From Streptomyces sp. R44 (GTDB lineage Bacteria; Actinomycetota; Actinomycetes; Streptomycetales; Streptomycetaceae), in contig NZ_CP163444.1 of NCBI RefSeq assembly GCF_041053105.1, positions 5,828,001 to 5,892,000 on the forward strand: a DNA stretch of 64,000 bases. Direction: 5' to 3'. The position numbers and the translations under genes were made by a program. Shown one piece after another: positions 10,283 through 13,925 of this stretch (its first letter is position 1; every line of letters begins with the position of its first letter). The notes below the pieces were generated by a model. The model ran no database searches, was not told where the DNA came from, and saw nothing but the letters and a program-made list of their open reading frames with translations.

Positions 10283-10921
10283 ATGGCCGAGGGACTCAGG
10301 GAACGCAAGAAGCGCGAGACGAAGCAGCGGATCTCGGACATCGCGACCGGGCTCTTCCTGGAGCACGGCTTCGTCGCCGTGACCGTCGCGGACGTCGCCG
10401 AGGCGGCGGACGTCTCCGTCAACACCGTCTACAACTACTTCCCGGCGAAGGAGGACCTCTTCCTCGACCGGATGGACGGCGTCACCCAGCGCCTCGCCCG
10501 GATGATCCGGGGCCGCGACCGGGGCGAGTCCGCCGCCCAGGCGGTCCTGCGGGAGCTGCGCCAGGACATCGGGGCCGTGTCACCCGCGTACGGACTCATG
10601 GACGGCTTCGACCGCTTCATGCACGTCATCGAGCACGCGCCCACGCTCAAGGCCCGCCTCTTCCATCTGCGGGAACAGGTCCAGGAGGCCGTCGTGGCCA
10701 CCCTGCGCGAGGAGACCGGCGCGGCCGCCGACGACCCGCTGCCGCTGCTCGTCGGCGGCCAGCTCGCCTGGATCGAGAGCGCCGTCGTCGGCTACATCAC
10801 CGGCGAGATGACCGCCGGACGCAAGGCGACCGCCGTCTCCCGCGAGGCCCTCGTCCTCCTCGACGAGATCGAGGAGCTGCTCGGCGAGAAGGTCCTGACG
10901 TACGCGGTGCGCGAAGGCTGA
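10283..10921 (+). CDS. TetR family transcriptional regulator
   Basis: A 212-residue repressor-type protein. The N-terminal HTH reads RKKRETKQRISDIATGLFLEHG, then VTVADVAEAADVSVNTVYNYFPAKEDL, followed by a variable ligand-binding helical domain. It is divergent from the DrrAB-like exporter, with a palindrome between, which is the typical arrangement for a drug- or lipid-responsive repressor of an efflux pump. No ribosome site precedes the ATG; TAGGAT 6 nt upstream suggests a leaderless mRNA. The ligand is unknown. Its stop codon lies inside a 41-bp tandem duplication. Confidence 0.92.
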   Translation: MAEGLRERKKRETKQRISDIATGLFLEHGFVAVTVADVAEAADVSVNTVYNYFPAKEDLFLDRMDGVTQRLARMIRGRDRGESAAQAVLRELRQDIGAVSPAYGLMDGFDRFMHVIEHAPTLKARLFHLREQVQEAVVATLREETGAAADDPLPLLVGGQLAWIESAVVGYITGEMTAGRKATAVSREALVLLDEIEELLGEKVLTYAVREG

Positions 10922-10997
10922 GCCCGTTCGCGCACCGCGACCTCAGGGTGTCGGGCGGCTGAGCCCGTTCGCGCACCGCGACCTCAAGCCGTCAGGC
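10916..10997. repeat. 41-bp tandem duplication at the 3' end of the tetR gene
   Basis: Two head-to-tail copies (10916-10956 and 10957-10997) begin GGCTGAGCCCGTTCGCGCAC. They are identical for about the first 30 bases and diverge slightly at the end. The first copy contains the tetR stop codon; the second overlaps the last codons of the convergent cysteine desulfurase gene. Confidence 0.85.
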
Positions 10998-12143
10998 GGC
11001 CGCTCGCGCCGCCGGGCCCGAGACGCCCGCCGCCAGCGCGCGGGCCGCGCGGACCGCGTCCTCCTCCGTGGTGAAGCGCCCGAAGCCCACCCGGATGCTG
11101 CCCCGGATCCGCTCCGGCGCCAGACCGGCCGCCGTCAGGACGTGCGAGGGCTCCTGCGCCGAGCTGTTGCACGCCGACCCGGTCGACACGGCGATGTCCG
11201 TGACCTCCAGGAGCAGCTGCTGGGCGTCCGTGCCCTCGAAGGACAGGTTCACCGCGTGCGGCAGGAATCCCGGACCCGTACCGCTGTTCAGCGTGTACGG
11301 CACGAGCTCGGCGAGCGTCGCCAGGAACCGCTCCCGGAGCCCGGCGAGCCGCACCGCCTCCTCCGCCCGGCCCGTCGCGAGGACGCCGACGGCCGCGCCC
11401 AGACCGATGACGGCGGCCGTGTTGACCGTGCCCGCCCGCAGCCCGCGCTCCTGACCGCCGCCGTGCAGCAGCGGTGCGAGCGGGGCCCGGTCCGACAGGC
11501 CGTTGGACACGTACAGCACGCCGATGCCCTTCGGGCCGTAGATCTTGTGCCCGGAGAAGGTGAGCAGGTCCACCCCGAGCGCCCGGACGTCGACGGGCAA
11601 CGAGCCCACGCCCTGCGTGGCGTCGCAGTGCAGCGGCACCCCGGCCGCACGCGTGACCGCGCCGATCTCCGCCACCGGCTGGATGGTGGAGAGCTCGTTG
11701 TTCGCCAGCATCACCGAGACCAGCGCGGTGTCCGGCCGCAGCGCCGCCGCGACCCGGTCCGCCGAGACGCGGCCCTGGCGGTCCACGGGCAGCACGGTCA
11801 CCTCGTGTCCGGCCGCCCGCAGCGAACGGCAGCTGTCCAGTACGGACTTGTGCTCCACGGCCGTCGTCACCACATGGCGGCGCTCGCCGGGCGTGACGAC
11901 CCCCTTGACGGCGAGGTTGTTGCCCTCGGTCGCACCGGACGTGAAGTAGATCTCGCTGCGCGCCGCCCCGATCAGCCGGGCGACGGCCCCGCGCGCCCGC
12001 TCCACCTCGCGGAAGGCGCGGATGCCGGCCGCGTGCGGGCTGGAGGGATTGGCGAAGCAGTGGGTGGCGGCGAAGCTCATCGCCTCGACGACCGCGGGGT
12101 CCGCCGGGGTGGTCGCCTGGTGGTCGAGATAGATCGTGGCCAT
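10992..12143 (-). CDS. Cysteine desulfurase (NifS/IscS family)
   Basis: PLP enzyme that takes sulfur from L-cysteine as an enzyme-bound persulfide, releasing alanine. The 383 residues contain H98 (AVEHKS), D174 of HCDATQ, PLP lysine K200 in FSGHKIYGPKG, QERGLRAGTVNTA, and the mobile loop STGSACNSSAQEPSHVL with persulfide cysteine C325. No iscU, thiI or mnmA is next to it. Instead it is the third gene of an operon with an EamA exporter and an unknown Cys-containing protein, 35 bp after the latter. A dedicated sulfur-handling role is therefore more likely than housekeeping Fe-S assembly (inference). Confidence 0.93.
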   Translation of the reverse strand: MATIYLDHQATTPADPAVVEAMSFAATHCFANPSSPHAAGIRAFREVERARGAVARLIGAARSEIYFTSGATEGNNLAVKGVVTPGERRHVVTTAVEHKSVLDSCRSLRAAGHEVTVLPVDRQGRVSADRVAAALRPDTALVSVMLANNELSTIQPVAEIGAVTRAAGVPLHCDATQGVGSLPVDVRALGVDLLTFSGHKIYGPKGIGVLYVSNGLSDRAPLAPLLHGGGQERGLRAGTVNTAAVIGLGAAVGVLATGRAEEAVRLAGLRERFLATLAELVPYTLNSGTGPGFLPHAVNLSFEGTDAQQLLLEVTDIAVSTGSACNSSAQEPSHVLTAAGLAPERIRGSIRVGFGRFTTEEDAVRAARALAAGVSGPAARAAA

Positions 12144-12178
12144 ACCTGTACTCCCGTCAGAAGACTGTCCGAGGTCCG

Positions 12179-12943
12179 TCAGAAGTCGTACGCGGTGTAG
12201 GGCAGGGCGATCGGATCGGCGCAGGCCGCGTCCGCGAAGACGAGGACGATCTCCTCGTCGGCGTCCGCCTGGGTGCGGAGGTAGATCTCGGCGCCCTTGG
12301 TCACCTTGTCCCGGTCGGCGAGCGAGTTGATGTCGACGACGTGGCGGCGGGCGCAGTCCGGGAAGGCGGCCCGCAGCCGGGCGAAGTAGCGGGCGAAGTA
12401 CTCGGCGACGATGAGCGGGCAGCGCGGGACGACGTGGTCGTCCTTGACGGTGCCGGCGAGCACCTTCGCGTACCGGCGGGAGCGGAAGAGGATCTCGTCG
12501 CCCTCCAGGACGAACAGCGGATGTTCCGCCGGTTCGCGCAGCCGGCGCTTCATGGCGCGGGCGGCGCGATTGCGCAGGGTGCGCTCGCGGGTGACGGTGA
12601 AGGAGGTCCCGGCGTCGGCCGCGACGGCGGTGAGCGGGGAGACGTCGGCCGGCGCGGAGGGGGCGGCCGGCAGCGTACAGACCTCGTCGGAACAGGACAT
12701 GCCGAGGTCGTTGACGATGACGTCGTAGACCACCTTGTTGCCGCGGTGCAATCGGCGGGCGGCGGCGCCGGTCTCCTGGGCCAGGGCGAAGGAGCTCAGG
12801 GAGAACTCCCCGATGCCGGCGGCCGTTTCGAAGTAGCCGCCCGCGACCAGTAACGCCGAGCGGCTACCGAGGTCGACGGTCTCCAGGAGGGGTTCGACGC
12901 GGGGCGGGAGGCTGCGGGTCCGGGGGGTGGCGAGGGTGTTCAA
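12179..12943 (-). CDS. Uncharacterised protein of the EamA-cysteine desulfurase operon
   Basis: A 254-residue soluble protein that I cannot assign to a family. It has no signal peptide or membrane helix. The conserved-looking core reads HPLFVLEGDEILFRSRRYAK, followed by PRCPLIVAEYFARYFARL and HVVDINSLADRDKVTKGAEIYL. Cysteines are at 84, 89, 175, 197 and 241; the CSDEVC pair could hold a metal or accept a persulfide. The start is TTG 12943, 7 nt after GGAG and overlapping the exporter stop as TTGA, so translation is coupled. It could be a sulfur acceptor for the desulfurase encoded next; this is a guess from context. Confidence 0.7.
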   Translation of the reverse strand: MNTLATPRTRSLPPRVEPLLETVDLGSRSALLVAGGYFETAAGIGEFSLSSFALAQETGAAARRLHRGNKVVYDVIVNDLGMSCSDEVCTLPAAPSAPADVSPLTAVAADAGTSFTVTRERTLRNRAARAMKRRLREPAEHPLFVLEGDEILFRSRRYAKVLAGTVKDDHVVPRCPLIVAEYFARYFARLRAAFPDCARRHVVDINSLADRDKVTKGAEIYLRTQADADEEIVLVFADAACADPIALPYTAYDF

Positions 12944-13857
12944 CGGTGCACTCCGTTCTTCCGGGACGGGGATCGGTCGGATGACGCGGGGGGTGTGCCG
13001 GGCGGGGCGGCCGAGGAGGGCACGGCCGTGCCGACGGCCGCCGTCACCACGCAGAGCACGGCGGCCCACTGGGCGGGGGAGAGGTGCTCGCCGAGCAGGA
13101 CGAGGCCCACCAGGGCCGCGATGACCGGCTCCACCGTGGACAGCACGGCGAAGACCCGGGGCGGCATCCGGCGCAGGGCGGCGAACTCCAGCGAGAAGGG
13201 GATGACCGTCGTCAGGACCGCGACCGCGAGCGCGGCCCCGAGCACCCCCGGCCGCAGGAGGACGTCGAGGGAGGGCAGGCCGAGCGCGGGGGCGGTGGGC
13301 AGGGCGAGGACGGCGGCGATCGTCAGGCCGAGGGCCAGGCCGGAACGGCCCGGGACCGCGCGGCCCACCCGGGCGCCGAGCAGGATGTATCCGGTGAGGG
13401 CGGCGCCGGTGAGCAGGCTCGCGGCGAGGCCGACCGGATCGTCCATGCCCCGCGTCCCGCCGAGCACGAGCAGGCCGGCGGCCGCGACCGCGACCCAGAG
13501 CCGGTCCACGGCGCGGCGCGAGGTGAGCGCGGCGAGCAGCAGCGGCCCGCTGAACTCCAGGGTCACCACGACACCGAGCGGCAGCCGGGAGGTGGCCTCG
13601 TAGAAGGCGAACTGCATGACGGTGAAGACGGCCCCGTAGGGGAGCAGGAGTCGCCAGTGGGTGCGCAGGAGCCGTGGCGCGGGCCGGGACAGCAGACAGA
13701 GCAGGGTGGCGGCGATGAGCAGCCGCAGCAGGGTCGCGCCCGTCGGTCCGGTCTCCTCGAACAGTCTTTTGGCGAAGGCGGATCCGAACTGCAGGCTGAC
13801 CATGCCGGTGAGGAGCAGCAGCGGGGCGGGAGCGGCTCCCAGGGCGTGCGGGCGCAT
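12940..13857 (-). CDS. EamA/DMT family exporter
   Basis: Integral membrane transporter of 305 residues with about ten hydrophobic helices arranged as two EamA repeats (LLLLTGMVSLQFGSAFAKRL..., then LVGLVLLGEHLSPAQWAAVLCVVTAAVG). E. coli EamA (YdeD) exports cysteine pathway metabolites, which fits the cysteine desulfurase in the same operon, but DMT proteins have many substrates. The ATG at 13857 follows GGAGAGGAGG. It is the first gene of the operon, under the ATACCCC...GGGGTAT palindrome. Confidence 0.85.
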   Translation of the reverse strand: MRPHALGAAPAPLLLLTGMVSLQFGSAFAKRLFEETGPTGATLLRLLIAATLLCLLSRPAPRLLRTHWRLLLPYGAVFTVMQFAFYEATSRLPLGVVVTLEFSGPLLLAALTSRRAVDRLWVAVAAAGLLVLGGTRGMDDPVGLAASLLTGAALTGYILLGARVGRAVPGRSGLALGLTIAAVLALPTAPALGLPSLDVLLRPGVLGAALAVAVLTTVIPFSLEFAALRRMPPRVFAVLSTVEPVIAALVGLVLLGEHLSPAQWAAVLCVVTAAVGTAVPSSAAPPGTPPASSDRSPSRKNGVHR

Positions 13858-13905
13858 GACGGCACCTCCTCTCCAGGCGTCGGCCGCCGGACGGATGCCG
13901 AAGAC

Positions 13906-13925
13906 TCTATACCCCCTAGGGGTAT
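13906..13925 (-). promoter_or_regulatory. CsoR/CstR-like operator overlapping the -10 of the EamA operon
   Basis: A perfect inverted repeat ATACCCC (13909-13915), CTA, GGGGTAT (13919-13925) sits 52 bp upstream of the exporter start. Read leftward, TATAGA (13911-13906) is a plausible -10 element overlapped by the palindrome. G/C tracts flanked by AT in this arrangement are characteristic of CsoR-family sites, including the persulfide sensor CstR. The regulator is not encoded nearby. Confidence 0.6.

Follow-up and report, generated by a model that had tools for sequence, protein, structure and literature searches.

A putative copper-induced sulfur-transfer and export operon behind a CsoR-type operator in Streptomyces sp. 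R44

We analyzed a 64,000-nucleotide stretch of the Streptomyces sp. R44 genome (NZ_CP163444.1, positions 5,828,001 to 5,892,000; hereafter the window, to which positions below refer), in which three leftward genes spanning 13857 -> 10992 encode, in order, an EamA-type exporter, a 254-residue protein and a NifS-type cysteine desulfurase, with a palindrome ahead of all three. We propose, with a probability of roughly 45%, that these genes form a copper-induced sulfur-transfer and export module. The proposal builds on the computed operon, the type of its operator and the conservation of that operator in Streptomyces, the predicted fold and three invariant cysteines of the 254-residue protein, and the pairing of this protein with a desulfurase behind copper-type promoters in two phyla, as well as on analogy to known sulfur-incorporation systems. 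A literature search of an open library with chosen words returned no described system of this three-gene composition, in agreement with an earlier annotation of the window made from its letters (the sequence-only reading), which knew of none.

The perfect palindrome ATACCCC-CTA-GGGGTAT (ATACCCCCTAGGGGTAT; 13909..13925, no strand assigned), a putative CsoR-type operator, was recovered by exact match over the likely -10, where the sequence-only reading had placed it. At up to two mismatches it was the single site of its kind in the window (0.08 expected in shuffles). The whole genome, a single contig of 8.9 Mb, has 16 such places, of which three are exact; a reversed-pattern control gave 2. The remaining two exact copies lie at copZ/copA loci for copper efflux, where both CopA proteins and one CopZ were assigned with family models and the second CopZ by eye, and the csoR gene of locus L027 is preceded by a site with one mismatch. 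The sequence-only reading had proposed a search for a CsoR-family gene. The genome encodes three such proteins; against the copper RicR model, whose cut-off is 175 bits, two of them reach 144 and 128 bits and the third, which is CstR-like, 43.5 bits. In an alignment made by eye, the third is without the histidine seen at the aligned place in the other two; we set it apart from the copper CsoRs by a histidine ligand rule that we assume to hold here.

Copper CsoR sites of Streptomyces lividans share TAC-X9-GTA, and the construct named copZA1-GTA up has all 17 bases of the window palindrome, from which the native copZA1 site differs by one base (PMC3902906). The persulfide-sensing ScCsoR of Streptomyces coelicolor binds ATACC-n6-GGTAT, which is one base shorter inside (PMC7533328). 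The window palindrome reads TAC-X9-GTA, i.e., ATACC-n7-GGTAT, with its arms enclosing the G tracts, and thus has the copper CsoR spacing and not the persulfide n6. No n6-type site (ATACC-n6-GGTAT) occurs in the window at up to one mismatch, whereas the genome's CstR-like gene carries one, with a single mismatch. Taken together, the n7 spacing, the exact copies at copZ/copA and the n6 site at the CstR-like gene suggest that the palindrome is best explained as an operator for copper CsoR rather than for a persulfide sensor of the CstR type. The sequence-only reading had described a CsoR/CstR-like operator over a possible sulfide/persulfide- or cysteine-stress module; its CsoR family and its sulfur theme were retained, but persulfide control was not, given the spacing and the copies at copper loci. 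The likeness to the S. lividans copper CsoR regulon (csoR, copZA1, copZA2) includes the TAC-X9-GTA operator with its G tracts, and the window's genome has two copper-type CsoR genes and the same site at copZ/copA loci. However, the S. lividans sites named in that work control csoR and copper efflux, whereas the window site precedes a sulfur-transfer-like operon (PMC3902906).

All nine of the other Streptomyces loci examined (L011-L016 and L040-L042) keep the operator with at most one mismatch, making 10 of 10 aligned upstream regions when the window is included, and vary in its centre and flanks; the family has more Streptomyces proteins than loci fetched. Relatives' loci were also read at the neighbouring dehydrogenase gene (n = 29). 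Two of these, in the window's genome and in G397, contain the operon, with 0 and 1 site mismatches, respectively, while the other 27, over the stretch read, gave no operon match, and their best sites had 3-6 mismatches. Nine of the 27 show an empty site, with the tetR neighbour 135-196 bp from the dehydrogenase gene; a tetR match 1.35 kb from that gene was left out of the count. Since the site is kept in operon-bearing Streptomyces loci and missing in 27 of 27 operon-free loci, we conclude that it probably travels with the operon.

The strongest argument for a copper-related function comes from outside the Actinomycetota. A search of a plasmid collection with the Paenarthrobacter homologue of the 254-residue protein returned one record, from Pseudoalteromonas sp. 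NC201 (relative P0058, 27.4% identity), whose 1.24-Mb replicon is a chromid according to the genome paper (PMC6706680). At this locus (L073), the genes after P0058 encode a NifS-type enzyme and then a class I/II aminotransferase, and facing these genes are cueR (154.4 bits to the CueR model, cut-off 147.4) and copA. The copA form of the promoter element, TTGACCTTACC-N5-GG, occurs exactly three times in 24.7 kb (0.03 expected), once upstream of P0058 and twice upstream of copA. We take the site upstream of P0058 to have the 19-bp spacer of CueR promoters. Judged from these motifs, the pair of 254-residue-type protein and NifS-type enzyme stands behind putative copper-type promoters of unrelated regulators, CsoR and CueR, in two phyla. 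Divergent from the three-gene unit (L073:5935-11327) are genes for a VioA-like oxidase, an indolepyruvate-decarboxylase-like thiamine diphosphate (ThDP) enzyme and a berberine-bridge-type (BBE) oxidase, which were named by their best sub-cut-off NCBIfam scores and Pfam and which possibly form a biosynthetic cluster.

Genome samples taken at four taxonomic levels contained the 254-residue family as follows: genus, 7 of 392 genomes; family, 4 of 394; class, 1 of 394; phylum, 3 of 396. The samples overlap, and each contains the window's genome. The three of the phylum sample are the window's genome, one distant relative (G1392) and one probable chance match (G1117, E 3.6e-4, with an internal stop), which is antisense to a dihydrolipoamide-dehydrogenase-like open reading frame (ORF) and was discarded. 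The relative in G1392, a low-GC Actinomycetota assembly, is real but distant (P0060, 31% over 137 residues to P0058); it adjoins aldehyde ferredoxin oxidoreductase (AOR), MttB-like and ThiS-like genes (L112:2407-3153), and its type was found in no other of 40 genomes searched in that assembly's class. Named homologue matches are mostly from Streptomyces, and protein searches, in which only candidates sharing most words with the query were scored, add homologues from Saccharopolyspora, Paenarthrobacter, Arthrobacter and Pseudarthrobacter. No relative was found in viral contigs or phage records. In two Streptantibioticus loci, L017 and L018, the genes lie in a different neighbourhood, with the trio intact together in L018. 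The conservation of the trio beyond close relatives that the sequence-only reading had raised was therefore seen in L018 and, for the pair, in Pseudoalteromonas, but not in L017 (Streptantibioticus parmotrematis), where the EamA gene (L017:731-1460) looks decayed, in two pieces in different frames with 48-49% identity. We note that the 254-residue homologue and nifS are still open in L017 and that transposase-like genes, named by eye, are nearby.

The 254-residue protein (12179..12943, minus strand) had no family in the Pfam or NCBIfam libraries searched. All five cysteines noted earlier were placed correctly, but only three of them are conserved among 55 family proteins. C84 (codon 12692..12694) and C89 (12677..12679) were each present in 54, the 55th being gapped, and C175 (12419..12421, in the motif PRCPLI; all three codons on the minus strand) was present in all 55, whereas C197 and C241 were present in 37 and 38. 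Further invariant polar residues are D79, E120, N125, R126, D210, K213 and E219. Structure models predict a Rossmann-type (HUP) catalytic domain of class I aminoacyl-tRNA synthetases (aaRS), closest to that of arginyl-tRNA synthetase (ArgRS). There is no anticodon domain, and the place aligned with HIGH reads mostly G-[IV]-[GD]-x in the family. NAD synthetase, which we take to be a PP-loop enzyme, is among the Foldseek structural matches listed; the top 50 listed included no PP-loop sulfurtransferase, although kinship to these enzymes may still exist. Two further matches were taken as chance, i.e., ribosomal L29, the sole match of a PDB sequence search (E 0.18), and TniQ in PADLOC (E 0.043).

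The operon is real, and its gene coordinates, TTGA overlap and 35-bp gap are as given in the sequence-only reading. The EamA/DMT-family exporter (305 residues, 12940..13857, minus strand) scored 68.3 bits to PF00892, above the cut-off. Its best NCBIfam model was RhtA, at 175.3 bits against a model cut-off of 354, so that export of cysteine metabolites, which the sequence-only reading cites for E. coli EamA, is no more than a possibility here. Its stop codon overlaps the TTG start of the 254-residue gene in TTGA (12940..12943, minus strand, by sequence), a start that agrees with homologue lengths, and the 35-bp gap follows before the gene for the NifS/IscS-type cysteine desulfurase (383 residues, 10992..12143, minus strand, PF00266 259.9 bits). 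This enzyme has the class V aminotransferase fold together with the pyridoxal phosphate (PLP) lysine K200 (codon 11544..11546) and the catalytic cysteine C325 (11169..11171, both minus strand), which identify it as NifS/IscS-type and lie at the positions noted before. NCBIfam gave 388 bits for NifS and 366 for DndA, with the NifS, IscS and DndA equivalogs all below cut-off, and PADLOC gave 448 bits for SspA and 447 for DndA. The latter scores raised Dnd/Ssp phosphorothioation defence as a candidate, which was set aside for want of a partner in the operon: PADLOC, run on the operon proteins only, gave no Dnd/Ssp match for the other two. The Streptomyces unit contains no further biosynthetic gene, and Pfam found no NUDIX match among the three genes. 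A direct repeat of TGAGGTCGCGGTGCGCGAACGGGCTCAGCC is present in two copies at 10916-10986, where nifS meets tetR.

From these features we infer copper induction, sulfur transfer to a substrate, and export of a product, as follows. A copper CsoR would occupy the palindrome at the -10 and be released from it upon binding Cu(I), so that the operon would be made at high copper. The NifS-type enzyme would take sulfur from cysteine as persulfide, and the 254-residue protein would receive it at or through C84-x4-C89 and C175 and put it into a small substrate; the three cysteines could act as a persulfide relay or as a metal or Fe-S (iron-sulfur) site with an open position. The EamA-type transporter would then carry the product out of the cell; a thiolated compound that binds copper is the likeliest candidate. 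Fluopsin is such a copper-binding product in Pseudomonas, and by comparison with it the copper control suggests a copper-binding product here as well.

By analogy, the plan of the operon matches that of known sulfur-incorporation units (stuS/stuJ, tgsA/tgsB/tgsD and LarE), and on the strength of this likeness we propose that NifS may load sulfur on the 254-residue protein and that the product may be exported. In the thiotetronate pathway, StuS and StuJ are likewise a pair of NifS-like desulfurase and sulfur transferase in Streptomyces, but StuJ is a thiouridylase-like enzyme (PMC5518548). The 6-thioguanine loci tgsA-F of Staphylococcus chromogenes and ycf of Erwinia amylovora similarly combine a desulfurase, a Rossmann-type nucleotide-hydrolase-fold protein and an efflux membrane protein; there, however, TgsB is TtuA-like, whereas the present operon has no PP-loop, no NUDIX genes and a copper-type operator (PMC7994395). 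The [4Fe-4S] tri-Cys sulfur insertases LarE and TtuA share with the 254-residue protein a set of three conserved cysteines, of which two are close together and the third lies far off; in LarE of Thermotoga maritima, these hold a [4Fe-4S] cluster, and the sulfur can come from IscS (PMC9283937). Unlike LarE and TtuA, the 254-residue protein is predicted to fold most like a class I aaRS.

Several observations weigh against the copper-induced sulfur-transfer and export module. LarE and TtuA have an SGGXDS PP-loop and a CxxC-C arrangement (PMC9283937), and here there is no PP-loop and the cysteines are spaced C-x4-C...C. Patterns for HIGH, KMSK (K[ML]S[KTRS]) and the PP-loop (SGGxDS) were found in 0 of 55 family proteins, and ATP use by the 254-residue protein is therefore not predicted. 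The aaRS fold match is one of structure only, with modest TM-scores of 0.41-0.54 in the best Foldseek rows, and Foldseek on a second model ranked cysteinyl-tRNA synthetase (CysRS) ahead of ArgRS. The protein has ~10% identity to the ArgRS catalytic domain and is without HIGH, KMSK, the anticodon domain or a significant profile match; when family alignments were compared by hhalign with sets of 3 and then 22 ArgRS rows (the latter chosen by simple patterns and possibly including a wrong row), the probabilities were ~1% or less, so we claim ArgRS kinship at the level of fold only. Both Streptantibioticus loci have the genes but no operator at up to four mismatches in the 1.4-1.7 kb scanned, and upstream conservation of the palindrome thus held in 9 of 9 other Streptomyces loci and in 0 of 2 from Streptantibioticus. 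At the Pseudoalteromonas locus, EamA has no match, the general CueR consensus picked out no site at P0058 when L073 was first scanned, and one later CueR-type pattern was shaped partly on the P0058 site, with which TTGACCTTACC-N5-GG, although shorter, overlaps. Finally, inspection by eye of the ORFs beside P0060, in the 9 kb read, showed none that resembled NifS; because of this, the NifS partnership may not be universal across the wider family.

The copper-type operator, and a Streptomyces unit without a further biosynthetic gene, would also suit copper-stress repair, in which the NifS-type enzyme and the tri-Cys protein rebuild copper-destroyed Fe-S clusters or supply sulfide, EamA removes excess amino acid, and no new small molecule is made. 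NifS-type enzymes do serve Fe-S assembly. However, the other two operon proteins are neither a scaffold nor Suf/Isc components, the Pseudoalteromonas pair sits with an aminotransferase and with divergent, biosynthetic-looking enzymes (VioA-like, ThDP and BBE-type), and the operon is rare, at 7 of 392 genomes of the genus; we regard repair as unlikely. A non-enzymatic role is improbable in our view: here the 254-residue protein would be a sulfur acceptor or a copper or sulfide binder, on which NifS sulfide would precipitate or mask Cu(I) as a detoxification sink. Its three invariant cysteines, the loss of HIGH and KMSK and the copper-type control would fit such a sink, but the many invariant polar residues (D79, E120, N125, R126, D210, K213 and E219) suggest an active site, and the EamA exporter would be left unexplained.

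We give little credence to a module for persulfide or cysteine stress that a CstR-like repressor would control. The operon concerns sulfur, and the genome does encode a CstR-like protein that by eye lacks the ligand histidine and that scores 43.5 bits against the copper model, but the operator spacing is n7, not n6 (PMC7533328), exact operator copies stand at copper genes, and in Pseudoalteromonas the promoter is CueR-type with cueR-copA beside it. Equally hard to credit is a standalone aminoacyl-adenylating or ligase enzyme (MshC-like), by which an amino acid would be activated for coupling while NifS sulfur is used elsewhere, since HIGH and KMSK patterns are found in none of the 55 family proteins.

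The copper-induced sulfur-transfer and export module could be part of a broader picture, which we offer tentatively and would bet against, if not heavily: an aaRS-derived, non-PP-loop, tri-Cys sulfurtransferase family would, with a dedicated desulfurase, make an exported copper-binding thio-metabolite, and copper control would have been recruited separately, through CsoR in Actinomycetota and CueR in Gammaproteobacteria. If the module is as proposed, sulfur-incorporation chemistry would gain a protein family without a Pfam or NCBIfam match, and a tRNA-synthetase-type fold would be used without its ATP motifs. It would also predict a copper-responsive sulfur metabolite in Streptomyces that could be sought by mass spectrometry.

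Other CsoR-type sites were seen elsewhere in the genome. At L028, two sites with one mismatch each (G000:C1:4783425 and 4783461) precede a gene for DHA2-type efflux and, after it, one for a methionine-gamma-lyase-like enzyme, with matches just or well below the model cut-offs; this may be another sulfur-metabolism unit under copper control. A two-mismatch site at L029 (G000:C1:1874995) is near a gene that by eye we presume to resemble the mycothiol ligase MshC. Sites with one mismatch were also found at L025 (G000:C1:2425926), upstream of a membrane protein that is rich in histidine and matches no NCBIfam model, and at L024 (G000:C1:1310021), upstream of a gene that by eye is AhpD-like.

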